Assembly (NCBI RefSeq): GCF_947623445.1
Contig: NC_135247.1
Span: 2,110,501-2,174,500, forward strand
Source: Clavelina lepadiformis
Lineage: Eukaryota > Chordata > Ascidiacea > Aplousobranchia > Clavelinidae
Reading direction: 5' to 3'
Length of the DNA stretch: 64,000 nt
A model generated the notes under the pieces. The model had not been told where the DNA came from and searched no databases. It saw only the letters and a list, made by a program, of their open reading frames with translations. Below are positions 14,201 to 53,268 of the stretch, piece by piece (within the stretch, counting starts at the first letter, position 1; each line of letters starts with the position of its first letter). Made by a program: the position numbers and the translations under genes.

Positions 14201-14300
14201 GAACCATAAACCACCGCCGATTTTGTCTTTTGCTTTGTCGTAGTTGTTCATAATATTTTGGTACAAACTTTAGTTTTCAATTTGCAAGGAGCTGTGTCAG

Positions 14301-27998: not shown

Positions 27999-30900
27999 AT
28001 GTCAAGCAACATTCAAGAAATGGTCAGCAGAATGCCCGGATTACTCATGGTGAGTTCTCTTAAATTATTAAAAGCAAGCAGCATGTCTGGACAATAATGG
28101 CTACACTGTACCTGGCATAGGATCCAATTCTGTGCTTATATAAAACCACACATTTATTACATATACGCTATGTCCAGTTGTTCATAGCTTTTGAAGTATA
28201 AAGATTTGATGCGCTTAAAAGTTCGTACCCACTAAGTGCGCGAAAGGTAAAACCAGCTCCTTACGTCATATTGAAAACTAGGCTCTTTGAGCGCTTGTTA
28301 TTTCGGGCTGGTTTATTCGAAGTGGCTCAATTGACGTCATAATATTTATTTACAGATATTCGACATAATCGGTTGGGTTGTGTACGCGTGGCTTCTTGCG
28401 ATTTATTTCCCCATCTACGTGCTCGGCTATCTCGTTATTCAAAAGAACTTGCTCTTCTTGAGATTACGTAAACTCGTTGGTTTTACGTCAAAATCCAAGT
28501 TGGGACTTGTGAGTCGTAAATTTAAGGTGAGTTTAAACGTATCCTGTTCATCAACATATAACCGACTGTACTGAGAAGTTCAGTTGCAAGGGTAACTCTC
28601 TTGCGTCCCCTTTTGGAACATATACTTTTCAAATTTCCCGCCCTTCCTCTTCTGGCCTCATTTCCATTACACAGCTCTTATTTTACCATACCTTGACATT
28701 GGTTTATCATTTGGTGGGGGAATTTATCGATCACTCAGTTTGTAAGGTAGAGTAACGTGGAATACTGTATCGTTGTCAAGTCTACGATTGGTTTCTTTTC
28801 ACCCCAAAATTTTTTTCGTTATTGCGTATTGCGTTATCATGAAGATTTTTTCCAAATGTATTTTTAGCTTTTTGAAATAAAACAATTACAAATATAGATA
28901 TAAACAAGCCAAAAGAAAATAATATCTATAAAACTAAACCCTGTATGGCCAAGGAAATAAATATTGATCCCACATATAGCAATATTCTTTAAGACTAAGT
29001 TAATAAAGAATATTAGTAAAATAAGTAAAACCTGACACAACATGCTAATCCTAAAAATGTACTTGAACGCAAAGCAAAGCCGTTGTAGGGTTTTCTGCCT
29101 AAAAAACAGTATTTTAAGTTGCTCATGTGACTTCGTAGGTTAAAGATGTAAGTCAGGTATCCACTGAAGAAGAAATAGATTTCCAGGCTAACAGGAGCAT
29201 GCAATACGTTCATAGAATGACGATGTGGACTCCGAAAGAGATCGTGAAATGTTTGCTGAAGTGAGTCCTTGAGCTGGTTCAGCACCTTGCAAAAAAAACA
29301 AAGTATTTTGACAAAACGTATAAGTTATGCAACTTTCCAGACAACAAACAATTCAGCTGATAAGCGACCAACAGCTTGCTTACGTCATCTTGTGCACGGT
29401 ATTTGCGCATTCAGTGAGATGGGACGCGAAACGAAAAATGTATCGCTTCGATTTAGAAGGATTTGAAGATCTTTTTCTTTTCCAGGTAATCACTGATGTA
29501 ATCTATTCTATTGTTGGAAGCCCGAGATTAAATTATTATTATTAATCCTTGACTTTACCTAAAACTAGCGACTTAACCTTTTACTTGGCTTACTTTGGAT
29601 GCTTGTTTAGGGATTTTACTGGGATGCGAGGCTCGTTTGGATCAGTGCTACTGCAGATAAGCTCATAATCAAGATGGACGACGGTGAGGAATATTCTTCT
29701 GACTGTGATCCGGAGAACAGGGCCGATTACGACCTTGCCAAGCTTCATGTCCAGGTAGGTACAAAACCGCATGAGAGAAGGAACATCAAAAAACATCATA
29801 TTGACCATGCAGAAATCGATTTGTGTTGCTGGTGGATTACGCTGCCGTAAAAAAGGCTTGGCTTTTATGACGTTTAAAATGCATGTTTAATAAACGATGA
29901 ACGACGTCTGATGTCTGCTAACTCATACACTAAGCCTACTGTGTTGAAACAAAACTTTTATACTTTTAACATATGAGCAAGTATTGGCATTGAACTGAAA
30001 TACTATATACGTTCACTTAGTCCTGCGTAGAAAAGTTACAGTTTTTTTGTTCATCTTCCAGATTTGTCTTTCCTATTTCGCACCAGGCCTCGCACACAAT
30101 CACGTTCATTTCGTCTTCCCGAGTGCCGTCTGTGTTCTGAGCAAGCGATGTTTGAATCACAACTCCACTCTATACAAACTACTGGCTCCTCACTTTCGAT
30201 TCACAGAGAGGATTAACTATCAGGTGTAATATCTTCTCATTACATCACATCGGGTCCTTTATCTTATCTTAAGAAAGTCTTTTGTGAATGGAAATCTGGA
30301 ATTACACGTATTTTTTACCGGATTTTCATGTTTCATTTGCCTAAGTTATCCATTTATGTAGAACACTTCCCATATTTGTGGTGTATGTGAACAGAGCAGT
30401 AGAGTGAATTAAAGTTGTGCTCTTCATTTAGCTGACATTTATCATTTCTCTTTAGGCTTTGAGGGTCGGGAAAGCGACCAACAACAAGAGATCCATCTTG
30501 GATCGAATATTTTTCCTCTGGCAGCCCTTTCCCGTCACCAAGGAACAATTCATGGAAGGGGTGGCGAGAAAATGTCGGAAGTATTACTTTGATCGCGGCT
30601 CTGTGGATTACGGAAGCGAGGTATAAGCCATAGTCACTTGTCTGTAGCCAAGACCAACCGTATTTCGATATTTTGGTAGGCACTCTCATGAATGAATGTG
30701 CTTCATTTTGCATCAGTGTAAATTCAAAAAGTCACCGGTGTAGGTATGTTTAGAAATATTTTTGTTGAATAATCATCTTACATGCGCGATTTTGTAAAAC
30801 AGGCCGCACACCGCGTGAGAATGTCCCGGCTCCCGTCTGTGATTGAAGAGGAGGACCACACCGAAAGAAAACATTTCGTTTTTCCTCCCGATTACGTTTC

Positions 30901-32165
30901 GAACAAGACTTTGCAAAAAGTAAGTGGTAATCTCTTTTCATAACGAAAAACTCCAGTCGTTGATCGGTTGTAACAGGTGAATAATCATCCATGGAATTTT
31001 CAATTTTCAAAGATTCCCTATTTAGCTTTCTTGAACGATTATTACACCGTGGTTAGGCGATTTGTCAAGGCGATGGAACCTTTTATAGAAAAGTGAGTGA
31101 TTCTACTCTTCTGTTAGATCAGTTCCCGCGCATCGGTAATCCTCAGCGATTCGTTTGTGCAGAGTTCTTGCATATTTTTTTATTATTTTCACAGGGACCA
31201 ATGGGAGATCCTTTCCAAGGAGGTGGCGGAAGTCGTTCCTCTTTTCAACCAAGTCAATATGGTCGATGCTATCGCTACGTTTATCCATCAGGTTGAAAAT
31301 TCGCCAATAAATTAATGTTAGGAAAATAAGTAAAAGTAATCATGAAGAGAAAACATTTGGCACTTAAAACTGGTTTTGCCCAATTTGCAATCCGCTTTTT
31401 AGTGAGTTCACATCATTGCGCTTGTAGGTCGGGGTTGTGCATTTCTGCGACCACAACAGCTATCTTCGCTACTTTGCTTACAAGTACGGCAGTATGGCAA
31501 TTCGTACGCCGTTCGAGAGTTTCAAAAACACCGAACACTGGCTGGAACAGAGCCAAATATCGGGCTTTGACGTCAACGAAGTTAAAAAGAATCCCCTCTC
31601 GTTGATATGGCAACGTGACGTCATGAGAACGAGGTACATCTGGCTGTGCGAGGGTGCTTATCTGGATCTTTGTTTTTTGGATAAATCGGCGCTAGGTTCT
31701 ATGGAGCGATAGTTCTCATGCGTGTCGTTAAAATTGTGATAAAGTCGTTACGGGGGCATTTTTATAAAACCTTTCCGTTATATCTTGTCAAGGTGTTTTC
31801 TCAACATCTTTGTTGATTATATTCCGAACCCCGACTGCGACCTTCAGTTGGTTCACACCGACTACGAGTTCGAACCTGCCGGAGCGAAGGATGCGGCGCG
31901 GGATTTTATATCCCAGCTTCGTTCGTTGGACGGAAACCTGAAGGTTCGATGAAATTTACCAGGTTTTGACGAAACTTGTGTTTCCCTGAACCTCTAAAGA
32001 AAGTTTTACAAAATGAAAAGCAAGAAAATAAATTTTTCAATATTTGCTTCAAAATTTCAGAAAAGACCCTCCCCGATATACATTCCCCAGCTACGGGGCG
32101 AAAAACGAGCGGCCGGGTCACAGATTACCCGACTGGATGAAATCGTACGTTGCGTTTGTTACTGA
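27999..32165 (+). CDS. LOXL-A: membrane-anchored lipoxygenase-like protein
   Basis: Thirteen exons: 27999-28049, 28356-28526, 29139-29260, 29341-29485, 29611-29754, 30062-30223, 30456-30620, 30803-30919, 31013-31092, 31195-31291, 31428-31633, 31793-31943, 32061-32165; 571 aa. Residues 20-44 form a membrane helix followed by basic residues; no PLAT domain. The lipoxygenase likeness rests on YDLAKLHVQ, then HNHVH (223-227), LYKLLAPHFRFTERIN, a helical block, HFCDH (423-427) and a C-terminal IYIPQLRG. Lipoxygenases oxygenate polyunsaturated fatty acids using iron held by four side chains and the C-terminal isoleucine. Here the first histidine pair is H-x3-H instead of H-x4-H, the second is HxxxH as in ALOX15, and 12 residues follow the aligned isoleucine (I559). 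Activity is therefore uncertain. All exon joins are in phase. Confidence 0.82.
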
Positions 32166-34867
32166 TGACATCAAAGGGGCCTGTCCATCAAGTCTGCTGT
32201 GAACGACGCAAAGCTCCTATTTTGTGGGGAAGTTTGCAAGATTGCTTTGCACGTTGTTATATTAATGGTCTTAGTGGCCCTGCCAGTTATTATTTCTGAG
32301 GACGTTTTAAACTTTTTCAGCTTTGCCAATTTTTTTTTATTCATTAGCCCATGCTAATAACAACTGGCTTGATTTTTTCCTACCTACCGCGCCTTTGACG
32401 AAAAACAAGATGATTAATATTTTATACTATCATAGACGGTTTTGGTTGTAGCTAATTCCAAATATTACATGTTTCACATTCGCACTCTCTGACGTTGTTT
32501 TTTGCCATTTGCGCCCAAGCAATGCGTATCAAAGAAATTTGAAAAATATAAAAATACTCAACTTAGCCTTTAAGTGTTTTTCTTGCTGTGCGTAGACTAA
32601 ACGTTTGTGTGTATTTTTTTACAGCTGTGTACACTCAAACGCCATCTGTGTACTTGCTAAAATGTTATTGTTTGATGTTTGCTGGAACTGGCCAATAGTT
32701 TTGTCCTATGGTACATATATACATTACTGTCTCTACGAAATACATTCCAGAATTTCTTGTTGTTTAGTTATGGACAGAATCTTTGCAAACTATATGAAAA
32801 ATGCATCGTTTATAGAAGAACCTACTGGGCTATGTCAGGACGAACAACTACTAAGTTTAAAATGAGAAAAGCAATTTTTATTAAAAAGAACATATCAGTT
32901 CCCTCGGTTCGATATTGATTGCACTCAACGTAATTGCACACGTTCCGGTTTGGGGCTGCAAGCAACAAATGTTGTAATGCGAAAGGAAATACGTTACGTA
33001 CGTACCGTGGGTAACAGTTAAATGATTCAGAAAAACATATTTTGCATAACCGGTGGGTTACACGCATCAACATAATATAAACACTATATCATTTATAAAT
33101 CGTGTTTATGCTATATCTATGTTTACACGGCATCAAAATCGTTCTATATGGCGTTTCAAAATTGCACACCATAAATTGCCAGCCAACTACTATTGCATGA
33201 AATTCTTACTATGAATGAATGTTGAAATTGATTTCATAATTTGCGCTTCGCACTTTTTGCACTGGCGACGAGTTGATCAAATGTGGAAATTCCTTTATAG
33301 TTTGCTTCTTCAGTGTTCGTTTTTCCCATTTATTTGACAAGTGGGGGAGCAAATGTTGCCTCTGTACCCGGGCACTAAAGCCCTAGGTACCCCTCTGATT
33401 CCGTGTAGGTGCAATCTCATTTGGGTGTAATTTTGTATTGCTCTAATCCCTTGCGGATACAATGCCATGTGGATGCAATTCAGTGTAAGTGCAGTTTTGT
33501 TTATAAACGATACAGTGTTTATATTAAATCTTTGCGTGTAACCCACCTGTTAGGCTAAATATGTTTTCCTACATGTGTGCAACCTCGTGGGTGCAATGCC
33601 GGTTCCACCAGTTCACTCCGTAAAGGTTGATAGGGTGACATGTAAAATACGAGGCGCGCGGTAAATGATAAAAATGAACCAGGTTTTTCGAAGGTTTAAC
33701 TTGGGCAACCACTGAGGAATTTTAAGGACTAAGTGCTGTAATTGCAGAAGCAGAAATTTGAGAGACCGTTTCGGTGCCTAAAACTCTGAGCCTATGCTAG
33801 TCGAGGGTGCTTTTATTACAAGCTACAATCTATAAATTCATCAACAGCTTACTCACAGGGTGGTTTTTTTTAGTAAACTTGTAATAAATAATAGTCCAAA
33901 AATGTTTGTAGGCACTTCGTATCTTATGCAAGCCGAAATTACTTTTGAAGTATGCATGTCATGAGCGACATCCGGCGGATGAAATTTGGGAAAAGTTTTA
34001 ACACACGAGCACCAAAAGGGATGTGACCAATGGACCATTGCACCAAAGACACTATGATGCCAGAACCACACAATTACTTAAAATTAATTCTCAACTATTA
34101 CAATGGTAACAGAAACTCTAAAAACTATGCTAAAACATTGAGAATTGCAGATTCTACGATGCTATTTCTATGGAGGGATCTACTCAAATGAAAGTTTATG
34201 CAGTGTGATTGAGCATTTAATAATACTGTTTGTAGTTGCAGTGTGATCAGTGCTACATTTCCTTCATTGCAGCCTACAGATGCTCAGATGAAGCGTTTAA
34301 CTCTTTTTATACTGACGTTCAACTTTGACCTTTTCTTGCAGCACTGATTGTGCCGCGCTTATTTAAGATACCAGTGGTAGCAAACTCAATGCTATTAAAA
34401 CCCTAATCCAAATGGTGAAAATAACTCTCGTAGCAGGCAGATCAAATAAAAATAACACCTTCCAAATTATGATATGAAGCTTTAATGTTCGAATGTAAAA
34501 ATCGAACAAACAGCAAAACAGCTCACAAGTATTGAACAGGTTATAACTGCAAACATTCCACATGGCAGAATCAGAAGTTTCTACAACGGTAATTGTAATT
34601 GCTTTCAGAACAACATGCAAGTCACTTGAGAAACACATGTCAGTTGCTTATACAATGTGACAGTGAATCTTTAAAACAACCAGACCTTAAAACAGCAGCG
34701 TAATGACTATACAGTTGTCATAACTCAACAGCGAATAATAAGAGTGTCGAAACTGTCATGCTAAAATTGCAATCCATTTTTACAAACTCTTAACAAACAG
34801 TAAATTAGAAACGAGTCTTACTGCGTTAGATTTATATTGTACTTCACAAAACCTGCTTCACATGTGC
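32166..34867. other. Intergenic DNA LOXL-A to PIN1
   Basis: No gene seen. It includes the 3' flanks of LOXL-A and PIN1, which converge here, and a degenerate short repeat near 33400-33600. Confidence 0.5.
33400..33500 (+). repeat. Degenerate GTGTAxGTGCAAT repeat
   Basis: Imperfect repeats of a motif like GTGTAGGTGCAAT separated by about 20-30 bases, with another loose copy near 33587. Too diverged to define a unit; may be an old minisatellite. Confidence 0.3.
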
Positions 34868-36526
34868 TTATACAATGCGTAAAATGAGATGTATTCCTGA
34901 ATCAGTGTATATTGGACCACTGAGATCGCCAGGGTGCAATGCAAAAGAAGCATCTTCAAACGGCTTCTGCATTTGACCTGAAATTTAAGCAATAAGCAAA
35001 TTTGTTGGAAATGTATGAGTCCAACTTATGACAAGTGAAAAACATCCAAATACTGGATATCTAAAACATTCAGTTCTAAGCAAGTAGTCAGAAAAACATT
35101 GGGTTTATAGCTATCTGATGAATTTTAAGCACTGACAATAAGCACTTAACAGGGCTTACCTCGTGTGAAGCTGCCTAAATCTCCACCACGTTTTGCTGAA
35201 CTGCAGTCACTATATTGTCGAGCTAGATCCTCAAACTTGGCACTACCAGACACAATCCGTTGATGAAAACCTTGGATTATCTCCAAAGCTTCTTCCTTTG
35301 ATCGAGTGATGTTTTCTTCTCGCCAGGATGAAGGGCGACGAACATCTCTGTGTTTCACCAGAAGGTGGTAGCATTGAACACTCTGTCAAACAAATGAACC
35401 TATTTGAACTTCTGTACAACTAATTTCCTCTTAGGTTGGAAAAACCCATTACTAGACTAGACACCCTTACCTTACACTTTCATTTATGAGTTTTTTGACA
35501 ACTTGAAAAGGTTTAGAAGCTAAAAATTAAAAAGCACAATATCTTTACTGACTCTACTTAGTTTAGCATGGAAAAAAGCAAGATGAAAAATTGATTTTCC
35601 TACCTCAGCTTTTTCAGGCTTTGTAGCGGGTGCAGTAGGTCTATCCCATTGAGTCTTTTGTGTGTATTTATTCATGTAGTAAGCTCTTCCTACGGACAAA
35701 AATTAAACAGTTTTAGCATAATATCCCAACATGATTAAATAAATGTTTTGGTATTAAAAAGTTGTTTATGATAGCAAAATTTCCAATTGCATAACACCGT
35801 ATGTTATCGAAAAACAAAGAGTGCCCACAAAATACACAGGTTTGTGTGGTTCATTTAGACCACACCTGCAATTGCAGAAAATAACTAATATCACTTGGAT
35901 TATGCACTTTTGACTGCAAGAACAAGCTTACATTGATTGGTTTGTGGCCTTTATGCCTTTCCGAAAGTGGACGCCCCTTGACAAAAAACTAATTGACGAA
36001 ATGTTGGAAAGTGGGAAGGTATGAAATATCTTGAATTATCAATTATCATATAATCTTAGTAGTAGTCTACTAGTAGGCTATATAATTGACTTTGCACTTA
36101 CCTGGCAATATTTTGCATATACTAGTACAGGTATAATTTTAAATTGACGAAATTTTTTCACTGCGATTACAGTTTGCTATTAACATGTAATATTTAAAAC
36201 TCAATCCAAAGATAGCAAAGTTTGAATTTATGCTAAACAGAACTTATTATCATCATGACGAAGATGAAACTAAGGTATTCAACAATTCCTCACCTTTCAA
36301 CATTATATACATGAGTTAGCCAACTATCAAAGTAGTGCAAGTGAGCATAGGCTATGTAAATGTGGAATTACCCAAAGCAATACCTCAAATGACATATAAC
36401 TTAACTTTAAAAGAAAATTGCACATCAATGGATTTTTCTATGTTTAGCAAACTCTGTACCTGAACTTCTACTTTCCTTCTTCACCCATCCATCTGGAAGT
36501 GGGCTCATTGCGTCTCCATCTGACAT
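34868..36526 (-). CDS. PIN1: PIN1 peptidyl-prolyl cis-trans isomerase
   Basis: Four exons on minus: 36460-36526, 35604-35689, 35160-35382, 34868-34977; 161 aa against 163 in human. PIN1 binds phospho-Ser/Thr-Pro motifs and flips the proline bond in cell-cycle and transcription regulators. The WW domain (about 10-43) has W14 and W37, Y26-Y27 and the phosphate-binding S19-R20. The parvulin domain has H57, K61, R66-R67 for phosphate, C111 and H155, matching human H59, K63, R68-R69, C113 and H157. All active-site residues are present. It ends IHLILRIV instead of IHIILRTE. Splice sites are GT-AG and phases fit throughout. Confidence 0.97.
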
Positions 36527-38170: not shown

Positions 38171-38660
38171 CAGGGGTCAGCACCCTTTTCCTAACCGTGG
38201 GCCAAAACTAAATTCTGCAAGTTTTCGGTAGGCCGTACTAAATTCGTCTCTTTCACTTTTTAAGCTTATTAAGTTTGTCTTTCCTTGTCTGACCTATATG
38301 CTTGGAAAAATTAGTATGCTTCGTGTCATAATGGCGCTTTATGTGGAATTCCTTGTTTACGGAAAAAGAAACGTTGCAAATCAAACGCGTAGGCCTACCA
38401 ATATGGTAAATGAAAAAGTATTTGTTCTCCCATTCTTCATAAGCTCGGCACTCACCATCAATTCTTCTACGTTGCGTCGACATTGTCAGGTTGCAAGAAA
38501 ATCGGACAAATATATGTAGCCTATATATGCTGAAGTTTTCATGTATCAACCAACTTAGTATTGAAAAGGATAATGCACTTTTTTTTGCTAAAATTTTTCT
38601 GATAATAAAAATGTGACATTTTTTTCGTGGATGCCACATGCGCCTAATAAGGCCCATACA
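38171..38660 (-). mobile_element. hAT fragment with BED-type N-terminus
   Basis: The end CAGGGGTCAGCACCC at 38171 and the following CCGTGGGCC are hAT-type. A minus-strand peptide starting MSTQRRRIDGECRAYEEWEN at 38483 and including FHIKRHYDTKHTNF matches the N-terminus of ZBED/GTF2IRD2-like hAT transposases. It then runs almost directly into the element's end, so nearly the entire catalytic region is missing. The opposite end was not found. Confidence 0.75.
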
Positions 38661-39556
38661 AGATGCTTGGCTAATTGATTTCCAGACTTCAAGAGTGGTT
38701 CCAGTCAGCAGTTGGCAAGTTGTTGCAGTTACTTTGATGCGCCTAGTGGAATCTTTTTAAATGTTTGTACAACTTAAAATGTGATTTTTCTAATAACGTT
38801 TTGTATCTGTAAGCAGGGGTTAGTTGGGTGATACCGGTACTACCCGTAACCATTGCTGCCACCAAGGAATTTGAGTTGCTAGATTCGTAAATGGGTTTGA
38901 CGTTTAATTTAAACAAAATTTAGCATTTTTTGCATTACTTTCATGTAATTGCGGTGTTAAAGATTAGAGATGAACTTTACATTTTCCGAGGTCGCATATT
39001 TGTCACCGCGATGCCATGTTCGATCCTTTTCCAGGGACAGTGACTCACAGTCATCACTCATCAGTCATTCAATTTCCAGTGCAAAACCTTAGACCCATTG
39101 TGGCGGTTGGCGTCCTGCCACTGAAAAGAAACGAAAACTCTGGAAGCCACATACTCCACACGGGTGACCCTTATAACCACATACGCCACACCATTGTCCA
39201 TATATTTTCTTGTTTTTGTTTAGTTTAGCAGATAAGTTAAACTTATTAACATACAGATGTTTCGTGTGCAGTTTCGATAAAAACGAAATTGCATTCATAT
39301 TCGGTATAAAATATCCATTTTTTATAACAGTGATTAAGCCTACAATTTGCAGCCTTAGCTATGTCTGATGTCTGATGACATTCAAAAAATACTTGGTAAT
39401 TTCGGTCACAATCCCGTTTAGATTTTCCCTTTCTGGACCGCAATCCCCCGTTTGAGAACTACACTAATAAGTTAGAGATATTGAAAGGAATCGCAAGCAT
39501 ATGATCATAGATAATATTGCATTTCAAAAGTGATGATAACGACGACTGCAATATGC

Positions 39557-42500
39557 TCAAAAGCACACAGAACGTATCATATCATTTAAACGTGTGATTT
39601 GCGTCCCAACGGATCTAGGTTCGCCTCGATTAACTGGAATATTGATCGGGCACTTCTCTTTCTGTAAAGAAAAAGCGAGATAAGGATAACCACGTAGGCT
39701 ACATTTCTAACATTAAAGATATTTGTACTTGTAACTAACTGCTAACTCACCTTAAGCTTGGAGTCAAGAGCTTCTAGTTGTGCTAAGAAATCCATTGCGG
39801 CCTCTTGCGGCCCAACTTGATCAAAATTGTACTCGGTCGATGTCAGACGCAGGTCAAGATTGGGATTGGGGATGTAATCGACAAACAGATTGATGAAACA
39901 CCTGCGCGAGTGTTCAACTTAATAAAACTCATCCGCGAGAGAGCGCTAAAGTATCAATCGTGAAACCAAAGTTGCTGGAGACCAACCTGGCTCTCATGAT
40001 ATCAGTTTGAGAAAGAAGTAATAGGGGGTCCTTTTTCACCGCATTAAGTTCAAGACCCATCTGATGACAGACATTTTTCCAATGATCCTCCGACTCGAAA
40101 CTCTCGAAAGGTGCCCGTATGGTCATGCAGCCGTATTTATATGCGAAATAACGGACATAGCTGTCGTGGTCACAGAAGTGAACGACACCAACCTGCATGG
40201 ACATAGTTTAAAATGCTATTAATTCCATGAATATTAACCCTCGCTTGAGAACACTGTCTAGAAAAATATTAAGCTTTATGTTAAGCTTGTGGATGTAGTT
40301 CTTATGTTGTGTAACGAAGTGCAAGGATCTTTCGTAACGTACAATCAAAACGTCTCCTGTTTTCAATCAAAAATATTGTGAAAACGGTTGAAACCGTTTT
40401 CAAGTACCATGAGCTTACTAAATCCTAAACAAGCGACAATAAGATAAAGATTTTAAGACGGCAGGCTGGTTTCGTAGGCTTTACATACTTTGACCTTCAT
40501 GGAAGTAGCAACTAATGCACACCATGAAATTGTTCTTGTAACTACTTCTGTTCGAATCTTTATTTGAGTTACAGTATGTTCTTCCGATAATGTTTTATAT
40601 TTTGTTCGAACAAACGATGTTATGTCCGAAACTAAGCTAGCAGCAGCTCTCATAAAATCATCGGGTAAACAAGTTGTAAGATTATGCTTTTATGCTGACT
40701 TTGAAGAAAGAAGTTATTTATGCACCTGATGGATAAATGTTGCAATGGCATCCACCATGTTGACTTGATTGAATCTTGGAACATGAACCGAAATTTCCTC
40801 TGCTAGCATTTTCCATTCCGACCTTGAGAAATAAATACAACAAATGAGACATGTTGTTATTTCCTGACTCACATGGAACACATTAATTCTACCCGGCGCA
40901 ATATTAATACTTTTTGCCTTCCCAGAAGCAATGTTGCATTATTGCTCGATGAATGTTCACCGGTGTCACGTGCCTTGAACAACTTAAATTGCCGTGGCTG
41001 ACTCCTTGATGTCATACGCTGATGACGTCACTAACCCCATGAACTATGTTACAAACTATTGTCTTACTTGTCAATAAACGGTTCCATTGCTTTGACGAAT
41101 CTCCGCACAACAAAGTAATATTCAGCCAAGAACGCCATATATGGAAGCTGTAGAAATCGTTGCATGTTAATTCGATTAAGCTCACTAAACCGAAACCACA
41201 ACTCACTTTGCATCCTTAAATATTTTAATGGCTGCACTGAACCAATAGGTTTACACAATATTCGTGAAATTGCGGTTGGCAGAAGTTGTCGGCAATTTGA
41301 AAGAGTTCTAATTCGGTAATTCCTTTCAAATATGCTTCTTTTTACTCACTTTCTGCATGTCTTTTTTTGTGACGTACGCGGGCGGGAAGAGAAAGTGATT
41401 TCTCTCCGTGTTGTCTTCCTCAACTACAGACGGAAGTCGTGTCGCCGATCTTGTCCGCAGCTGAAACAAATCCTTCAAATATTATCTCCGCGTCAAGAAT
41501 AAGGATCGTAAATACGTTCATCACACTTCGATATGTTTTACTTCATAGAAATTTCAGTCCCACCAACCTCGGTACGGTAATCAGGCGACCCGCATTCGTG
41601 GTAATAATTCTTACACTTAACAGCAACATTCTCCACAAATTGCTCCCGTGTGATGGGAAATGGTTGCCAGAAGAAGAAAAACCGGTCAATCAAAGTCTGT
41701 CGGTTACTCGTCGCTTTCCCGACCTTTAAAGCCTTGATCCGGTATGAAACGCAAATGTTGGTTTAAACGTTTACAGACTTTTACTGCAAAGTAGCCCCAC
41801 TGCACTTTAGAATTGAAAATGCTGCACTTAAATCAGTGCGTCATGCACCACGAATTTTGTGTTAGACAAAGACAACAAGTCTCTTGCGTGTTTATCATGC
41901 TTAGCATATTTTTTGAAAATACCCTCATCCTGCTGTCGGATAAGGTTATCAAGAAACACGAAGCATAGCATCGCCCGGTCTTGCCAGTATGTAGTTACCG
42001 ATGTTTTCGTGTTTTCCGGCATAATCACGCGATTTATAAAGGATCAAATTTAAGTATAATCTCATGTAATAACCTAAAATTGTATCTAAGCCCCGTCACT
42101 CACCTGATAATTTATGCGCTCAGTGAAACGAAAGTGGGGGGAAAGAAGCTTGTAGAGGGTCGATTGATGGTTTAGTTTGTTTTTTGCCAAAACGCAAACC
42201 GCGCTCGGGAAGACAAAATGCACGTAATTATGGGATAAACCTGGGGCGAAATAGGACAGGCAGACCTGCAAAGAAAAAACCTTTGCTGACAACAAACAAC
42301 GGAGCATTGTTATCGGAAAGTAGGACACGGCAACTATTCTTACGTGAGTAACATACAAAGAATGCATGGACTACTTATATGCACGAGTATGTCTATTCGT
42401 ACAATTGCTCTCCCTGCTATTCTTTTTTAGCATACTGTTTATGTACAATTCTATTAAAAAGGAGCCAAAAACGTTCGTCTTTTATCAACCTGAGCATGAA

Positions 42501-43816
42501 GCTTAGCTAGCTTGTAGTCGGATCTTTGCGCAGGTTCACAGTCCGATGAGAACTCAGACCCGTCATCCATCTGGATTATTATCCTGCTTCCGTCAGCGTC
42601 CACGAAGATCTGTCTAGCGTCCCAGTAGAATCCCTTTCAAAAATATTTTATCTCATCTGACAGTTTTTTGCTTGCTTTTGCTCGTTTCTTTTTTGTGTTC
42701 GTTAAGTGTCGGTTGATTTTATTAAGAATTATTTAAAGGGGCACACCTGGAAAAGGAAATAATTCTGCAGTTCAAGCATCGACAGGCAGAACATTTTTCG
42801 TTTCTCGTCCCATTTCACTGCATGGGAAAAAGTTGTTGCTAATATGACGTAAGCGAGTTGTTCATCGCTGATCAAATTCAGTTTCTGACGTCTGTGTATA
42901 GAAACACAAGTTTGTAATTTGTACTTTTGTCAAAAATTTGCGTTCCAAATGCGTTTTATATATTTTTCTTTGAAATATTAATTAACGACGTACGTAAAGC
43001 GTAAAATTAATAACATACGTAAAACGTCTTACCCAAGGATTGCTTTGACAATTTCTTTAGGCGTCCACAACGTCATCCTATGAACATATCCGAGACTTCT
43101 GTGACTTTGGAAGTCGATCTCTTCCTCTGCTGACACTTCGCTTATATCGGTCACCTGAAACATTCAGTTCCTTGAAGTTAAGTAAAAGTAAAGTAAATTA
43201 AGTAAGTTAAGTACGTCAAGTAAAAACATCAAGTAAAAAAGTAACAGTAAGGGTAGTAAAAGTAAAACTACATTAACTTAACTAAAACTATACAACAAGT
43301 AAAAAATTAAGTTCATTCAATCGTAAAACAGTATCTACTATTTTATGATTAAATATTTATTTCTGGAAATTAAGAGATTTTTGACTATTGAATTAACTCA
43401 AACGGTTGAAAAAAAAACAAAATCTTCCAAACATGTTAATCGATAAAAGTATACGCAAGCGAGGAGTAGCCTAGTAGTGCACGTCATAAAATAGTTGTTG
43501 CTGATCCAATTTCAAGTACACAAAGCCTAATAATCTCACCCGGCTCCGGCGGCTAACTAAGCCAAGTTTCGCTTTGTTGCTTTTAAATCCCAAGAATTTA
43601 AGGAGCTTTAACTTAGCGATATTTTTTCGAATCGTCAGATATCCGAGAGCGTACATCGGAAGGTAGATAGTCATGAGCCCGCCGTATATCATCCAACCAA
43701 TAACATCAAACACCTGAAATTGAAAGTACAAATTATGGGACATCTATAAGACATGCCGTGCTGTAAGTACAAGTAAATGACATACAACGCACCCATTCCG
43801 GCAATATCCGCTTCAT
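39557..43816 (-). CDS. LOXL-B: membrane-anchored lipoxygenase-like protein
   Basis: Thirteen exons on minus: 43793-43816, 43540-43713, 43033-43154, 42747-42891, 42490-42633, 42104-42265, 41568-41732, 41350-41460, 41068-41147, 40726-40822, 39987-40192, 39751-39901, 39557-39661; 561 aa. The eight-residue first exon (MKRILPEW) is followed by a membrane helix encoded in exon 2. Key sites: HNYVH (215-219), so the central histidine of LOXL-A is Tyr and only the outer pair is conserved; LYKLLSPHFRFTERIN; HFCDH (413-417); final exon with GTQITRLNDMIRSVCF. Apart from exons 1, 2 and 8, every exon has the same length as in LOXL-A. Transcribed away from LOXL-C. Substrate unknown; endomembrane location inferred from the anchor. 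Confidence 0.82.
43171..43300. repeat. AAGTA-rich simple repeat in LOXL-B intron
   Basis: Irregular run of AAGTA and AAGTTA units within intron 2 of LOXL-B. Likely a decayed microsatellite. Confidence 0.6.
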
Positions 43817-44769
43817 TTTTACCCTGATAAAGGAAACCTTGTTATTTCTGAATCTTTTCCACCGATAGTAGTCAGTTTTCCGATAACTTTTGGCAAAAAA
43901 AGCCTTTCGAATGCGCTATACCGGTATAAATGTGCACTGCAAGGTACAAAATCTCTCACAAAAAAATAAAGGTTGTTGACGACTTATGAAAATGCAGACT
44001 AAGTCATAAGTTCAAACTTTGATAAGATTTGCAAAGCGCACATCTTTATATACCAGCATCGGTAGTGATCTTTCCGCTTGACCAACCATGCGTGTAACAG
44101 TGTTTTTCTAGTGAGCTGTAAGATCGTTGCTCGGTTGGTATTTTAAGTTTATGTCTGGCATTGGTTGAATTCTTGTACGCAGTGAGCACAAACAAGAAAC
44201 AAACATGTTGCTTTCTAAATTTACACACTTGCAAAGTACACTGTCCATAAAAATGCATGTAGTCTTATTAAGTATTTTCAATTATCTGTTTAATCAGGCA
44301 GCAATAAATAATTAACGTTAGCAAGAAAAACGTCTTTTTGTCGCCTCTTTGCATTGTTTTACAAGAAGTCGGTTTTAGTCATACACTTTACACGCTTTAA
44401 ACTGTGTCACGTTTTGTTGGAATTCATTTTTCTGGCACGAAACCTTGTTTAGCCTTTATGATTACGTGGCCAAGTTCTGATTCTCCTGTAACAGTGAAGA
44501 CCGCGTCTTGTGACGTACATTGCTACTTACGGTGTTGATTACGTCGTAACAAGGAAAGTGCCGTGATCTGAATCAAAGCGTCCAATCTAAAAAAGAGAAA
44601 ATCTAAGGGTGCGGTCTTATTTTAAAGTCACTTCCGTCGAAATGTTATTGTTTGGGAGAAATCCTTTACGGACACTCTCTTGTTTGAGATGGTTATTTCT
44701 AGCACAACATTCTTCTCGGTCCGTCGCTTTCTAGAAGATAAACGTGGAATACGTACATTTCCAGTTCGT

Positions 44770-44925
44770 ACATTCCCGCAGCATTTTCTTATAAATAACC
44801 TCTAAACGTGTCACCAATCGAGTTGAAACTTTGTGTACTGCGGAGAAAATCTCCACCACGTCCGTCTTAGTGAGGAACCCAACCGACAAACATGTCAGCT
44901 CGGTTATATATGTTGAAAATAGAAA
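44770..44925 (-). pseudogene. Possible RhoGEF-like orphan exon
   Basis: The minus-strand frame contains TELTCLSVGFLTKTDVVEIF and VHKVSTRLVTRLEVIYKKML. The spacing of hydrophobic residues is reminiscent of a DH (RhoGEF) helix pair, where a segment like this follows the loop. Splice sites are not convincing and no neighbouring exons were found, so this could be chance. Confidence 0.2.
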
Positions 44926-45023
44926 AAAATATTTATTTCCCATGCATTTCGATCTTTTGTCAGTTATTTTAAAGACGTTATGTTAAAGTTGCTAGAATTT
45001 CAGCATCTTTTTATACTGTAAAG

Positions 45024-45860
45024 CAGGGATCGGCAACCTTTTGCTAGTCACGGGCCAAATGTCGAGTGTACAACTCTTTGGCGGGCCGGAATTTTCATTA
45101 ATACTATAATTCACACTCACTTCAGTATATTACGCTATATTGCTCCAATCTGAATCATACCAATCACAAAAAGAGCAAAATACAGTATATGTATTCACAC
45201 TTCAACAACACAGTATTAATGTGACACTTGATGCTGCTTGCTTTGTGAAAGTTTTTCAACATCTGGTGACAAGTCAGATGAAGCAAGAACCAGAACATTT
45301 TCTAAATGGGCGTCCGAAACGCGTGATCTTAGCTTGCTCTTCGTGAATTTCATTTTTGAAAACATTTGTTCACATGTGTACGTGCTACCAAACATCGATG
45401 CCATTTCGTTTGCATTGTTGGTCAAGCTGGGATAAAGACCACTTGCAAGAACGTACTTTTTGTAAAAGTTAAGCAGCGATGTGCCTTTTGTATGAAATTT
45501 TGCCTTCAATTCGTCACTGCATTGCATTTCAAGAAAGTCCATTTGAAATTTTTCGGGAAAGGTATTGGCGTCCACGTACTCGCTAGTATCTCGTACTTAC
45601 TACTTAGTACTTAGTACTTAGTACGAGATACTAGTCTACAGCCTTCGCACCAGATTTATGGCGTAACAATAGACTACTACGACGTACTAATGGCGTAACA
45701 ATACCACAAACTTTTTAAACAGAGCTAACACTGCAGTTTGAAACTCAATAAGAAACGGCGGGCCGTATTCTTGTGATAACTAATTAATATGTCTCGGGCT
45801 GGACCTTTTCGCATGGCGGGCTGGATCCGGCCCGCGGGCCGTAGGTTGCCGACCCTTGCA
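45024..45860 (-). mobile_element. hAT element, deleted copy with transposase C-terminus
   Basis: Ends are inverted repeats: CAGGGATCGGCAACC on the left and GGTTGCCGACCCTTG on the right. The flanks TGTAAAG match on both sides. Between them, 45216-45575 (minus) codes for the hAT dimerisation region, with FGSTYTCEQMFSKMKFTKSK and LRSRVSDAHLENVL, but the rest of the transposase is gone. G+C-rich GGCGGGCC blocks near both ends are usual for this family. Confidence 0.85.
45583..45634. repeat. Inverted repeat with 15-bp perfect arms
   Basis: CTAGTATCTCGTACT at 45583-45597 is exactly reverse-complementary to 45620-45634. The 22-base loop is made of ACTTAGT repeats. It lies inside the hAT copy, just upstream of its coding remnant, and could be a small insertion or an extruding hairpin. 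Confidence 0.85.
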
Positions 45861-46969
45861 GTGTAAAGAATACTGCTACAGTTATCGACACATTGAAAGT
45901 TATTTCCCGACTGTGATAAGTGACATCATAAACAATGTTTCAAGACATGCCTGAGTAGATTATACGTATAACCAGTCCGGTAAAAACTTGTACAGCAGGT
46001 TACTTGTCGGATGGTAATGCAGAAACCACACAAAGTTTTACTTGTTTTTTGCTACTCTTTTAAGTGATTGATTTTTCCTTTTTTACTGGCTTACTCCACC
46101 TTCGAAATTGTTTCAAGTAAAATCGGCAAAGAGCAATATATTTTCGTCGCTAAGTAGCGTAGTCAACCTTCTAAAGATAATTTCAGTGCGTCTGGCATGA
46201 GTTAATGACGTGGTGTTGATGACACGACAAGAAAACAGACGTTGTTTCAATGATTTTTTGCGTTACTTGATCAAATTAAAGCATAGGCCAAAATATACAT
46301 AAATAAATACCCGGCTGCAATTTTGTAAACATGAATATTGCCAAGTTGTGGTAGTTTTACTGTAAAACTGTAGGCTACTGTTATATTTTATATCTCTTGT
46401 TTAGCCAAAGCCTTGTCTCTGCATCAAAACACTCGTCCACCCATTTTGTCGTGATTCTATTTCGTCGCATATCAATTGCATTCCCAACTAATTACAACAA
46501 GTTTCCCTTTTATGAGATATAGTTACAACGAACACAGTGTTTTATTTTCAAACGTCTCAAAACACACGATATGACAATACCTTGATAAAAAAAGAAAACG
46601 CCAACACCTTGCTGCAGAAATTAAAAAATATAAAACACCATCAAAACCGGGACAACACCTCAGATGGTGGTGTACAGAAACGTGTTTATCGTGATGGTTT
46701 ATAATGATTTCAACACGAAATAGAAATGTTATAGCCACTAGTTATCAAAATTCTTGGTCAATTTGGCTTCAGAGTGCAACTACAAATAACGGAGTCATTT
46801 AAAAGTTAAATATGTGGCACACGGTTGGACGCTGATGACTCTCTCATTTTCAAAAGAGTCAGTTCTCGTCACAGTTCAAACGCGCAGTTCACAAAAAAGC
46901 TGGGGAATCAGTCAGCAAGCAATTTCCCTCACAACGGTATAAAAGCTTTGACGTTGATTCATCGCAAAA

Positions 46970-49900
46970 TCAGTAACAATTCGACCTCACCAGGGTGTCC
47001 AGTTTGGCAATCTGTAAACCCGACGGCCTAAAATCGTTTTCGTTCCTCGTGAATTTTAACGGTGATTCTTGGATCTGTGAATAACAAAGGTTTTATAGTT
47101 TTTACGCAAAACGTCAACGAAAAACAACGTCTTACGTCATACTGAAAAACAAAGAACAGTAAATGACGCAAGAATTCACCGCTTTATGTACAGAAACCTC
47201 ACAGCTTGGGATGGACATGCGTCTATGACGTTTTCCTGTCGCAAAATCCCACAATTGACAATATTTCTCTCATGAGTCATGACATTAAACCCGAAAGCAT
47301 GGATGTCGAAAATTGTTCAAACAGAAGCAATTTTTATGGTCGGAAGTCGTAAAATGGGCAGAACTATAGGCTAATGCTGTTCAAAATTACGTCTCACGAA
47401 AAATATTAATCTGGCAAGGACCGAATCAGGACAGATTCAGAACTCTTACTTAAACCTTTTAATGAGAAAAACATTTACAGTGTAGACAACAAAAACTTTG
47501 ACAATGGAAGAGTTGGAATCTTCAAATTTTCGAAATACAACAAAATACGCATTTTATTACCTTTAAATTTCCATCTAGACAACGCAGCTTTGATATGAAA
47601 TTCCTGACCAGAATATCAGCTTCGTTGTTTTGAAAGTCGTAGTTGGTTTTCACCAAAGACAGGTCACAAGTAGGAGACGGAACGTAATCGACGAAAACGT
47701 TAAGAAAACATCTAGAAATACCGTAGAAGATGGTGTTAAAACGGGGCAATAACATGTACGCATTAGCACCTTGCACTACAAGGGGTTGCAAGGAACCCTT
47801 ATTTTAAAAACTTGTCACAAACCGAGTGAGAACTTTTCTAGCAAATTATATCACCAAATCCAAGATTTTTTCGTATAAAAATTTATACCAATGCGAGCTT
47901 TTTTTCGTAGTTCATTCAACAAACCTCATTCTCATGACGTCACGTTGACGTATAAGCCGAACTGGATTTTTCTTAATTGCATCAACTGGAGTTCCGGTTT
48001 CCGCCTGAAACGAGCTCCAAAATTCCTTGTTGGAAAACTTTTCAAACGGAGTCCTAATGCTCATGCATCCGTGACTCCGCGCAAAGAAGTCCGTGTAACT
48101 CGAATGATCCGCGGAATGAACAATAGCGACCTACGTCACAATTAATATTATCACATAGCACAGCTGAGTGCAGTTTGTTGCTACGTCACAATAACATTTA
48201 CATAAGGATGTTTATACCAATGTTTAACCCAAATTTAGATCATTTTGTACCAGATGAATAAACGTAGCGATTGCGTCAACTTTGTTCACTCGTTCAAAGC
48301 GTGGGACGTGACGAGAGATCGAAGTTTGCAACTGCGTCCACTCGTCTCTAAACACAGCAAAATAACCTCAGGTCCTTGAAGTTTAAACGTGCGCTGTGTT
48401 GTGACTTATTACTAAGAACAAAACCAGAACTCGCTGAGGCTTTGGCACGAAATGGCAACTTATTGGCTTCTTTTTCAATGAATATTCGTGCTTTGAATAT
48501 AAAATTACATTGCTAAAGATCTCTAGATAGTTTTAACCTTTGAGGTATAGACTGAACCCATGTTTCATACCGTTAAATAACACCTACGTGTCGATAAATG
48601 GCTCCATTTCGGCGATGAATTGCCTTATTACCGAGTAATACTGGCTCAAATAACTAAAGTAAGGAATCTGTAAAACAATAATAACTGATCCTATAAAAAT
48701 AGCACTCACTAAAATTAAGTGCAGCAAACAATCGAATTGTGATATGACAATGATGAAAGACATGAAGTCGATTTACCTTTTGCATGTCTTGGTTATCTAC
48801 AAATGTCGGTGGGAAAATGGAGTGTTCTCGCTTTTGGGGTTTCACCGATTTTGAAGCTCTGCTGGTCTCTTCCTACCAAAATAAGTTATAACTTAGTCAA
48901 TTTCGAAAACTTTATTGAAAATAAAGTAATTAAAAGAACTTTTGCAACTACTGTAACTTCACAATCTAACAGTATCCGTTCGCTAAAAGTATGATGGTTT
49001 AAACTACCGCGTTCTTAGAATTTTACACAATTTAAAATGACATTTCTACCAGAAACCTTCCCGAAATTAAATCGTTTTTTAAAACCAACCGGGGGCGATT
49101 CTTTTACTTCGGCCGAGTAATCTTTCGATCCCAGCTCAATGTAATATTTTTCCAACTGCGAGGCCATTTTGCTGGAAAATTGTTCCTTAGTTACAGGGAA
49201 TGGTTTCCAGAAGCAAAAGCCACGATCAAACAATGTCCTCGTGTTGGATGAAGCGTGGCAAATTCTCAAAGCCTTCGCAAAAAGAGACATAGAAGTAAAA
49301 AATTATTTACACAACTTTAACCGATGTTTAAACTTTCCAACATGACCATAGGTTCGCTCAATCAAAACACACATGGTACTTGTATTTTGTTTTTGTATTA
49401 TTACTATTTTGTTGCCACATTGTAGGCTACTTGTCTGTTACTTATCCAGTGAATAAACAATAAAAAACTAAACGAGTCATAGTTCTCTTGTATTTTACGA
49501 CGTAACGTAATTTTACCTGGTAGTTAAGTCGCTCCATGAAGCGAAAATGCGGTGCCAGCAGCTTGTAGAGAAAGCTCGACTCTGACAGATGTCGTTTCGC
49601 GTAGATGCAGACGGCGCTCGGGAAAACGAAATGCACGTAATTGTGTCCGAGTCCTGGTGCGTAGTAAGACATACAGACCTATAGCATGACATTATCACCG
49701 TCAGTCGTCGGGTACATAACCAAAATAACCAGCACAAGTATATTGCAAAACGCGTAGTGTCCACACGATTTCGCCAGCCAGACAACAAAAGAACTGTGTA
49801 TATTTAATAAGGCTTCCAAAACGGTCTAGAAACAAGACAGTTTTCACTGGGCTTCGTTTGTGGTCGATATCACCTGCAAATGAAGCTTAGCGAGGTCATA

Positions 49901-52900
49901 ATCCGGTCGATCGTGGCGTGCACAGTCCGAATGAAACTCCTCCTCACTCTCCATCTCGATGACGATCTTTTCCTTGTCTGGATCAACGTAAACGCGCCTC
50001 GCATCCCAGTAAAATCCCTGAAAGAACAAGAGAAGATGGAAGGTTACTGTGTTCTTTTGTAATTGCAACAACAGAATCCAAAAGTTTTTTTGTTATAAAC
50101 CCGAAACTTTTAAATCAGTATTAAAGCCTGTTAACAACGTGTTATTTTTCACACTTGTGTGGTCATAGTGTCTGTTGAAATTATGGAGAAAATTTCTACC
50201 TCAAATAGGGTAAATTGTTCCATCGTGGTCAGATCAAAGCAGTACATGCCCTTTTCCTCGCACCAGTTTAAAAAGTGCGCATAAACCGTGTTGAATAGGA
50301 CGTAGCAGAGCTGGCTGTCCGAAATCAATTCAATCTTTTGTCGTCTATTTTTAATTAAAAAGTAACATAACATCTAAATATAGAAGCAAGACATCACGCG
50401 ATGCACTTTCAGCTCGTTTAATGTGCACTTTAATATGCAAAATACTTCCGTAATTAACATCAAAATATGCAGATGCACTTTTACACCATTTAGCTAAAAA
50501 TTTGTTGATCGTGACTCTTAAAACACAATTAATTACGGGAAATAAACAATTATTTTGCAATAATTTATCAAAACTTGCCTTACTGCCAATTTCGAAAGCT
50601 CTTTCGCGGTCCACAACGTCATTCTTGTGACGTAAGATAGACTGCGGTGCGTGAGAAAATCGACTTCTTCATCCGTTGAGATTAAACCGACGTCACTGAC
50701 CTGCGCAAGGGCCGCAAAAAATAACGGTACCAGTTATTGATGCTGATTGGTCAAATAATTTGCAGAGAATGATAAGAACAGAAATCAGCGCCAAGACACG
50801 CGGTCGAAAAACTTCCCGCGAATGACATGAAATTTGTTCACATTTATATATTAAAGTGAGCCCTAACCTTGGTCACTGAAGCGAGTCGTGAAACCCGTAA
50901 AGAAAGCATTGTTGAAACAATAACAACCTTGCTACAGCAAGATGGATTTATGCTACTAACTTTGCAGCGTAGTTGCACACTGGATTCGATTCGCCCAAAA
51001 AATGTTACCTTGGACGACCTGCGGAAGCTTGCCTTGCAGTGAGATGCAATTTTTTTGTGCACTGAATGCGATCGTCCCACGTCAACGCACTCGCACACAA
51101 ACATGTTTGTTTTTTTCGCATCACCGCTTACAATTTAAGGTAGTCCTGTGACTGGTTATGTACCTGACATACCGGTACTGTACATTGGTCAAGCTTAGAT
51201 GGAAATTCTGAATACAACAAAGAAGTGAAAAGTATTGGATGAAGCGAATTAGGTTGAAATATGGCATTGTAACCGTTTCTTTGAGTTCAGTACCTCAATA
51301 GCTAAACAAAAGGATATTTGATTTGGTCACATAACCTACGTATATTTGCTGATGCAAAAAGCTCAGTAGCATAGAGTTAACGTGTTGCCATAACCGTAAA
51401 ATTTGCAAGTTGGCTAATTTATTGCAAATAGGCGACTCGAAATTTCGATTGTACCATCAGCTTTGTAGGCCATATCCTTGTATCACATTACACTGGTAGT
51501 GTCACCTGCAGATTCGATCCGTGACGTAATCAGTGTGCAGACTATGGCTTGCCATAGCAGACAAGTGCGAATGTGACGACTGAACACGATGACCGTCGCA
51601 TGCATTTCCTTGTGATTTCGTTTCCCGGCAACGCATCTGCGCTCTGTATGCACTGCGCAGGGATCTTTATTTTGCTAAACGTTGGCTGGTTAAATAATAC
51701 AAAGGTTTCGTTTATGTTCTGTACAGGATGTGTGCAAAGTCTATCGTTTTGTGTGTGGCTTAGGTTAACTTTGCTTGGTTTGCACACAAAGAGGTGACCA
51801 CTGAAGTTCACTGAAACTTGCTGACCCTTGAAATAAATGATCTTACAGAAGTGAAGTGTTTGGCGACTGGATTAAATCATCTTCAAGCGGACTCGCTTTT
51901 TCTAAAAACGAAAAGTTTCTGGGGTTTTGTTGCCGCCACAAAGCAAAAACAATCTCCCGCACTTCTGAAAATAGCGATCTCTGATTGGTGATGCGGGTTG
52001 CTGTTTTTAGTTACGTCAGAGTTAGTAGTTTCGAGCCATTTAGCTAAGCTTATGGCTGCTACTATTTCATCGGGAAAAAAATCGTGCGTTCAAAGTTATT
52101 TTTCACAGTTTCTTGTTAAACTAAACTAAATATTATAACATAGTAACCTAGATTTACCTTGTAATCTAAATTTAACTCCAATGGAACCCTAAATAGCTAA
52201 AATCAACTTTTTATATACCAATTATCCTAACCCAACCGCCTATCTTTAACAAAGGGCTACTTGACCTTCATACGGTGAAATAGTCACTTCGTTTAGCTTA
52301 CATCTCTCAGTAAAAATTAGGATATCAAGCTGCGCTTTGAACTGCACTACTTCAGCATTAGCCATGACGTCAACATTAGCCACGACGTCAACATTAACCT
52401 TGACGTCAACATTTTAAAGAGCGTACTTTCAAGTGGAACGTTTGATTAAGAAGAACGCAAATAGCCTTTAATTTGTCAATATTTTCTAACTATCAAATGG
52501 AATGAAACGGTTTAATAACCTGTTAAACGTTTCTAACGTAAATGATAAATAGTTTGATTCAGAGTGAAGATGATACACTCGCAAGTTGCTTAATTTCGTT
52601 TTGCCCTTGGAGCTGATGCGTTCGCATTGTGCACAAATGTCTAAGCACGGGATTAATGTCGACAGCATAATAAACTTCCTAACCACGTGAGCATTTATCG
52701 AATTTCATTCTATTGCCTTCTAACAACTAACCGAAAATCTCTAAAATATGGTCTGTCACAAACATTATTTTCAAAGTGTTGGTTTTTGTCTAGTTATCTG
52801 TTCTGTAGAGGGATTGTTTTGGTCTGAGTAAACCGCATACATCTTATGGGTTATAATAATGGGAGTTAATACGTAAACCATTTAAGGTTTTGTGTTGTTT

Positions 52901-53268
52901 GTAAGCAGTTTTTGCATATTTTCCAAAGTGTTATATTAAACACAACAGATTTGAAGAGGCGTAAACAACCACTGCGGACCAGAGATAATAAGAAAAATAT
53001 AACGCTATGTTGTTTTAATGAAACCATGTGCACATTAACTAAGTAAACCATATTGATAACCTACGCGTAAACCTTATTCGAAAACCACCTTGCATTTTGA
53101 AGACAGTGGAGTCATGACACCTTGATAAATGTATCGGAATCCGGAGATTTGCTTTACTCGATTAATCCATAGCTTCAGCTTGATAAGTGCTGAACCGAGC
53201 AGGTATAATGGATAGTAAATCCACAGCAAAAGTGCCAAATAGACAGCGTGTTCAACTAGGGTTAACAT
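46970..53268 (-). CDS. LOXL-C: membrane-anchored lipoxygenase-like protein
   Basis: Twelve exons on minus: 53089-53268, 50579-50700, 50200-50344, 49874-50017, 49517-49678, 49108-49272, 48777-48872, 48588-48667, 48251-48347, 47925-48130, 47561-47711, 46970-47074; 550 aa. The first exon encodes the anchor helix (LALLLWIYYPLYLLGSALIK). Its ATG follows TTTTTTTTAGAT directly, so the 5' end is either trans-spliced or joined to a non-coding exon. Key sites: HNYVH (209-213), LYKLLAPHFRFMERLN, HSADH (402-406), and a last exon ending VRSNCY. The donor after 50579 reads AG|GCAAGT, a GC-AG intron; using it restores both phase and the family's 122-base exon. Most diverged of the three, yet with intact frame. 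Confidence 0.8.
52356..52409. repeat. Three tandem 18-bp units with CRE-like cores
   Basis: Three consecutive copies of CATTAGCCATGACGTCAA with small changes. Copies 1 and 3 contain the palindrome TGACGTCA, the full CREB/ATF site; copy 2 has CGACGTCA. It lies in the first long intron of LOXL-C, about 680 bases inside it. Enhancer function is inference. Confidence 0.75.

Follow-up and report, generated by a model that had tools for sequence, protein, structure and literature searches.

A putative membrane-anchored, lipoxygenase-like protein family with no PLAT match in the ascidian Clavelina lepadiformis

We analysed a 64,000-nucleotide (nt) stretch of the genome of Clavelina lepadiformis (GCF_947623445.1, NC_135247.1:2,110,501-2,174,500, forward strand; hereafter the window, lying on the contig that we label C8), which carries three related genes, here called A, B, and C. 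Together with two paralogs located elsewhere in the genome, D and E, they may constitute a divergent, integral-membrane family of lipoxygenase (LOX)-like proteins, devoid of PLAT, that would hold a single-metal centre and act on the acyl chains of the bilayer or on their hydroperoxides. We give this reading a probability of about 0.55. It is built on direct observations, i.e., the genes themselves, their paralogy, the purifying selection acting on them, a hydrophobic N-terminal segment, the lack of any PLAT match, a distant homology to LOXs, and a set of invariant His.

The spliced models of A, B, and C were made by eye, on both strands, from splice sites and reading frame. They agree exactly in span and strand with the three genes of the original prediction, and their lengths are those that it had announced (550-571 amino acids, aa):

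27999..32165, plus strand: gene A, 571 aa, spliced model of 13 exons, all introns GT-AG; exons 1-7 at 27999-28049, 28356-28526, 29139-29260, 29341-29485, 29611-29754, 30062-30223, 30456-30620, and exons 8-13 at 30803-30919, 31013-31092, 31195-31291, 31428-31633, 31793-31943, 32061-32165
39557..43816, minus strand: gene B, 561 aa, spliced model of 13 exons, all introns GT-AG; exons 1-7 at 43793-43816, 43540-43713, 43033-43154, 42747-42891, 42490-42633, 42104-42265, 41568-41732, and exons 8-13 at 41350-41460, 41068-41147, 40726-40822, 39987-40192, 39751-39901, 39557-39661
46970..53268, minus strand: gene C, 550 aa, spliced model of 12 exons, introns GT-AG except one; exons 1-6 at 53089-53268, 50579-50700, 50200-50344, 49874-50017, 49517-49678, 49108-49272, and exons 7-12 at 48777-48872, 48588-48667, 48251-48347, 47925-48130, 47561-47711, 46970-47074

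The exon plan is common to A and B, in which exons 3-7 and 9-13 have the same lengths, and the single GC-AG intron of gene C directly follows exon 50579-50700. The shakiest parts of the models are the 24-nt exon 1 of B and the choice of the start codon in A, B, and C. As open reading models, the three are real, complete multi-exon genes. The landmarks on which the prediction had been based are also there, namely LAKLH in A, B, and C, LYKLL(A/S)PHFRF, and HNxVH.

At the protein level, A is 62% identical to B and 51% to C. Synonymous sites are saturated (pS of 0.76-0.86) while pN is only 0.24-0.37, so that A, B, and C are old paralogs kept under purifying selection. Exon 6 is the best conserved of the 13 exons of gene A, with 69% of its columns invariant across A, B, and C. 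A search of the genome (209 Mb, 95 contigs) with A gave at least 42 matches at E<=0.01, a lower bound since only the best candidates were scored. They correspond to A, B, C, stray copies of exon 3, and two further genes:

C5 near 16.636 Mb: paralog D, from the genome search with A
C9 near 10.024 Mb: paralog E, from the same search

Both are 36% identical to A and have fewer introns than A-C in the parts read; their sequences are approximate joins of open exon pieces.

The homology to LOXs was recovered by several searches. In the Pfam scan, PF00305 ranks first for each of A, B, and C and is the sole family matched by all of them (best E of the three, 0.015). The matches at A 201-267 and B 190-259 cover the same stretch of the model, and four of the five paralogs match it, the best one being D (20.1 bits, E 2.5e-4). 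The original prediction had left room for a clear best match to another family; none was seen, the other Pfam matches being single-member and at chance level. Among them, ThaI and DUSP (one member each, E 0.087 and 0.16) were rejected as chance, and no NCBIfam family was matched. In the PDB, searched up to E=10, A alone retrieved LOXs in 7 of 8 matches (E 0.025 to 1.1), with PaxB (0.17) as the only other one, and the profile of A, B, and C did so in 13 of 14 (E 0.36 to 2). With the five-paralog profile, three ALOX15B sequences came out at E 0.0024-0.0025 and every other match at 0.087 or above; LOXs account for 31 of the 41 matches listed, soybean LOX-1 variants being numerous among them. The ten others, all at E>=0.2, comprise CENP-T, KRR1, and eight chains of the PHB depolymerase PhaZ7; the eight, which belong to a single protein, were rejected.

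We also ran a LOX profile, made from 17 bacterial LOXs and 3 animal chains of the PDB, against the 2182 six-frame open reading frames (ORFs) of at least 20 aa of the window. The helix-9 exons of the three genes rank 1-3 (A 1.7e-5, C 1.2e-3, B 1.6e-3), and rank 4 has E=1. The same exons lead, more weakly, with a profile made of the three animal chains only (A 4.1e-4, B 0.065, C 0.27; next 0.63), and again with the LOX profile enlarged with LOX exons of the same genome (3.2e-5, 1.2e-3, 4.6e-3; next 0.98). By this ranking and by the ALOX15B match, the helix-9/arched-helix sequence signature of LOXs is present in A, B, and C, and the retention of this region is statistically shown:

30062..30223, plus strand: gene A exon 6, LOX helix-9/arched-helix region with H223, H227, and LYKLLAPHFRFTERIN
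42104..42265, minus strand: gene B exon 6, LOX helix-9/arched-helix region
49517..49678, minus strand: gene C exon 5, LOX helix-9/arched-helix region

Profile-profile comparison goes in the same direction. Residues 204-571 aligned by hhalign to LOXs score 49.6 (Prob 87.7), the best of 50 column shuffles reaching 24.8, and the full proteins against the bacterial LOXs score 44.0, for 27.0 in the best of 100 shuffles and 14.8 in the reversed alignment.

In mammalian ALOX15, the metal is held by four His. For rabbit 15-LOX, we take the ligand His to be chain positions 360, 365, 540, and 544. Five residues are the same in every one of the five paralogs, namely H223, H227, H423, D426, and H427; the four His make up the candidate metal site, whose second part and C-terminal neighbourhood are encoded here:

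31428..31633, plus strand: gene A exon 11, H423xxDH427, aligned with the third and fourth ligand positions of LOX
39987..40192, minus strand: gene B exon 11, HFCDH motif
47925..48130, minus strand: gene C exon 10, HSADH motif
32061..32165, plus strand: gene A last exon, C-terminus RCVCY
39557..39661, minus strand: gene B last exon, C-terminus RSVCF
46970..47074, minus strand: gene C last exon, C-terminus RSNCY

The hhalign alignment needs one gap to put H223 and H227 on rabbit positions 360 and 365, the family spacing being HxxxH and that of LOX HxxxxH; in the HMMER comparison with the LOX profile, a gap is likewise opened for B and C at this His pair. When the C half of the five-member alignment was taken without helix 9, H423 fell on 540 and H427 on 544 in 8/8 overlapping runs, and the C-terminal helix kept the same register in the 6/6 runs that cover it. 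When C-half segments were shuffled, both ligand positions received a His in 1/120 and 3/120 cases, and a single one of them in 15 and 19. For the HxxDH helix, ungapped scans gave no significance and several competing registers. In the HxxxxHxxxxH run (FHEALTH), the first His had been considered as a ligand and was dropped after comparison of the rabbit chain indices with the ligand positions (the second and third His), which removed an early idea of a lost first ligand. Taken together, the invariant His suggest that the A-E proteins probably bind a metal, and the rest of the LOX catalytic fold is very probably kept, though weakly shown.

The other component of the family is its N-terminus. Residues ~18-46 of A are hydrophobic, the best KD19 window reaching 2.26 there (strong) and 1.86 in C (clear), but no more than 1.38 in B (moderate). 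D also has a hydrophobic N-terminus. An aligned proline lies within the segment in A, B, C, and D, i.e., the four proteins with a known N-terminus, and the 20 residues that follow contain 3-7 Lys/Arg for 0-2 Asp/Glu:

28356..28526, plus strand: gene A exon 2, hydrophobic anchor (IYFPIYVLG) and basic flank
43540..43713, minus strand: gene B exon 2, hydrophobic anchor (IYLPMYALG)
53089..53268, minus strand: gene C exon 1, hydrophobic anchor (IYYPLYLLG)

The Pfam scan gave no PLAT match in A-E; as the start of E could not be located, its N-terminus lies outside this test. The predicted replacement of PLAT by an N-terminal membrane segment is supported in A, B, and C, which all have the hydrophobic segment and none a PLAT match. 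In the simplest reading, this segment would form either a hairpin or a kinked transmembrane helix, and the positive-inside rule would place the catalytic domain in the cytosol.

On the other hand, a series of observations weighs against our reading. All five proteins stay below the gathering cut-off of PF00305, set at 23.6 bits (A 12.8, B 14.2, and C too, as implied by the best E of 0.015 among A, B, and C), and paralog E alone has no PF00305 match in the Pfam scan. The LOX catalytic domain of the original prediction is supported as a distant homology and not as a match of each single protein; the PF00305 check that it had called for singles out the only family common to the three genes, with scores under the cut-off. 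Against the three animal chains only, hhalign gives a weaker result (score 36.8, Prob 43.7, best shuffle 30.7), and five members bring no gain over three (49.1, Prob 81.9, best of 100 shuffles 32.0). Around helix 9 and helix 18, the introns look, by eye, differently placed from those of the genome's canonical LOX genes, a difference compatible with an ancient divergence of the latter from the A-E family. An unrelated family of helical membrane proteins, carrying a LYKLLxPHxRxTxxIN stretch by chance, would account for single-sequence scores below the cut-off and for a significant part of only ~67 residues; indeed, the hhalign P of 3.4e-6 becomes ~0.08 at the database scale of some 25,000 families. 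We nevertheless hold such a coincidence to be very unlikely, since the LOX profile places the three helix-9 exons first among the ORFs of the window, the five-paralog profile reaches ALOX15B, and the second His pair falls on ligand positions even with the first region removed.

Further points of the same kind concern the candidate metal site. The spacing of the helix-9 His is one residue short, and the HMMER alignment of A with ALOX15B is ungapped and puts Phe228 on the second ligand position. The C-half scores are weak (reached by 0, 0, 0, 1, 2, 2, 3, 8, 10, and 14 of 60 shuffles in ten runs, by segment and target). With three sequences, the C half gave no significant match to LOX, and the register of HxxDH wavered by four residues. 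As to the C-terminus, the ligands of LOXs are given, in an excerpt of the source, as three fixed His, a fourth residue that is His, Asn, or Ser, and a terminal carboxyl, usually of Ile and very occasionally of Val (PMC13059375). The 17 bacterial LOXs of our profile end in Ile (14), Val (2), or Phe (1, L007). The last residue is Y, F, Y, F, and F in A to E, and not the Ile or Val of LOXs, and the C-terminal pattern of A, B, and C is (C/S)(V/N)C(F/Y). The main rival to an active enzyme is a lipid-binding pseudoenzyme, in which the LOX fold and the anchor would be kept while the short helix-9 spacing and the aromatic C-terminus, found in all five proteins, would prevent metal redox catalysis; such a protein would bind lipids or partners as a sensor, a carrier, or a scaffold. 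We consider it somewhat unlikely, as the five diverged paralogs have all conserved the four candidate ligand His and D426, beyond what a dead site should show, and as a C-terminal Phe is also found in L007.

A second possibility is a LOX-fold enzyme that processes hydroperoxides (of the isomerase, epoxyalcohol synthase, or lyase type) and is not a dioxygenase. ALOXE3 is such a hydroperoxide-processing enzyme. This second possibility is a narrower form of our own reading and overlaps it; it would fit a candidate metal site that is kept in altered surroundings, and an anchored enzyme could act downstream of the LOXs of the same genome. Nothing positive separates it from a dioxygenase, and we regard this narrower form, taken for itself, as unlikely.

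Under the reading that we prefer, i.e., an anchored LOX-like family with a metal centre, we infer the metal, the chemistry, the substrate, and the location of the A-E proteins from sequence. The N-terminal segment, with its central proline and basic flank, would tie the protein to an internal membrane, the LOX-like domain facing the cytosol. One helix would contribute H223 and H227, a second one H423 and H427, and the four would jointly hold a single metal ion, with the carboxylate of the C-terminal Phe/Tyr as a possible fifth ligand. The bilayer would then supply the anchored enzyme directly with polyunsaturated acyl chains, to be oxygenated, or with their hydroperoxides, to be rearranged. 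We put forward more tentatively, as possible yet doubtful, that A-E are a clade of active, integral-membrane animal LOXs, whose metal centre would be all-His (HxxxH and HxxDH) and whose C-terminal ligand would be aromatic, and which would oxygenate bilayer acyl chains separately from the PLAT LOXs of the same genome. The N-terminal PLAT/beta-sandwich domain is regarded as the main means by which animal LOXs reach the membrane. If our reading is true, the LOX fold has been adapted to work within the membrane in an animal lineage too, with five diverged copies in which the candidate ligands are invariant. Moreover, because both the helix-9 spacing and the C-terminal residue are altered, the family would offer a direct test of the parts of the metal site that are truly required.

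The genome of C. lepadiformis also contains ordinary LOX genes. PF00305 has at least 24 matches over the cut-off, which are clustered on C9 (13.64-13.70 Mb) and C4 (5.57-5.61 Mb) or single on C2, C3, and C5; among the matches listed, none is on C8, the contig of the window. PLAT matches adjoin the LOX genes on C9, C4, and C2, and among the 36 PLAT matches listed, none is on C8, none beside D or E, and none beside the single LOX matches of C3 and C5. Therefore, the A-E family coexists with PLAT-bearing LOXs in one genome. The canonical LOX genes of C9, C4, and C2 share with A-E the arched-helix motif, e.g., HPVYKLLRPHLQTVSAINTDAR. Unlike A-E, the C9 and C4 LOXs that we read have HxxxxH, mostly HAAVN, ends in NSIAI or NSISI, and PLAT matches beside them. 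Two side observations were made among these genes. The C2 gene near 2.40 Mb (L024 and L028) is a divergent LOX gene, with a helix-18 exon reading FTASCRQAAVS where other LOXs of the same genome have TSSAQHAAVN, and with an exon that ends in IPLASSL before the stop; it has possibly lost a metal ligand. The matches on C5 at 21.87 Mb (L026) and on C3 at 25.48 Mb (L027) are isolated, weaker LOX-like exons, apparently from degenerate or divergent LOX genes.

Compared with the animal enzymes ALOX15B and ALOX15, A-E show the same order of motifs, i.e., LAK..., the His pair, L-x-KLL-x-PH-x-R-x-T-x-x-IN, HxxxH, and the C-terminal helix. They differ from them by the lack of a PLAT match, the N-terminal hydrophobic segment, HxxxH on helix 9, the C-terminal Phe/Tyr, and scores below the cut-off. 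The PF00305 cut-off, the C-terminal Ile/Val, and PLAT were each looked for and found wanting, and A-E are for this reason not to be filed as canonical LOXs, although, if active, they would operate in the manner of one. The anchor idea is not new in itself, and the new architecture that had been proposed was too strong a claim: excerpts of two sources describe some prokaryotic LOXs anchored by an extra alpha-helix, with no beta-sandwich (PMC10889196), and fungal LOXs without the beta-barrel (PMC13059375). As far as these excerpts go, the former resemble A-E in contacting the membrane without an N-terminal barrel and the latter in being barrel-less, but both are canonical LOXs, whereas the relationship of A-E is remote and the family lies in an intron-rich animal genome. 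No description of an anchored, remote LOX-like family in an animal genome was found among the titles and abstract openings listed by searches of the open-licence literature. In Ciona, two lipoxygenase domain-containing proteins (F6PID9 and F6UJG6, PMC13225635) and an arachidonate 5-lipoxygenase gene (PMC5402223) are mentioned in the excerpts of these sources. Since the family falls below the Pfam cut-off, its relatives in other genomes may be unnamed. Among 212 candidate stretches in GTDB genomes and 36 in IMG/VR, no relative was confirmed, a weak negative because each scan relied on two short peptide patterns.

The window has a GC content of 37% and an observed/expected CpG ratio of 0.96, and its genes are intron-rich. 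With the excess of TGACGTCA described below, these traits seem to resemble those of Ciona-like ascidians; excerpts of PMC1796609 give no count of this motif for the Ciona genome. Its first third carries a tandem 8.5-kb duplication (1-21374), made of two units that are 98-99% identical (1-8475 and 8476-16984) and of a partial third one (16985-21374; 94-98%). Stray inverted copies of gene A exon 3 lie in this region:

5761..5896, minus strand: stray inverted copy of gene A exon 3 and of the start of the next intron, 96% identical over 136 nt
14281..14416, minus strand: second stray inverted copy of gene A exon 3, in the second tandem 8.5-kb unit, 96% identical over 136 nt

Three more copies of this exon are found upstream on the contig (C8:2107779, 2099332, and 2082096), the first two being about one tandem unit apart. 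The tandem units hold five intronless ORFs of ~335 aa, starting near 1560, 6660, 10035, 15181, and 19891. The one that was profiled has five hydrophobic peaks and gives the impression of a seven-transmembrane-like protein. Three of these ORFs were scanned with no Pfam family above the cut-off, and one was scanned against the PDB with no match.

Transposase fragments were found at 17844-18458 on the plus strand (DDE_Tnp_1_7, E 1.8e-34), which we take to be piggyBac-like, and at 45219-45596 on the minus strand (hAT dimerisation region, E 1.9e-5). Between A and B, 35149-35385 on the minus strand is an exon of a parvulin-type prolyl isomerase (PF00639, E 1.2e-11), and the ORF at 38256-38756, also on the minus strand, has a near-threshold match to the Spin-doc zinc finger (PF18658, 26.1 bits for a threshold of 27.3). 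Finally, TGACGTCA is strongly in excess across the window, with 14 occurrences for 0.65 expected and a maximum of 3 in 100 shuffles; two occurrences lie in gene A exon 11 (31568 and 31616) and one in gene C exon 10 (47935).

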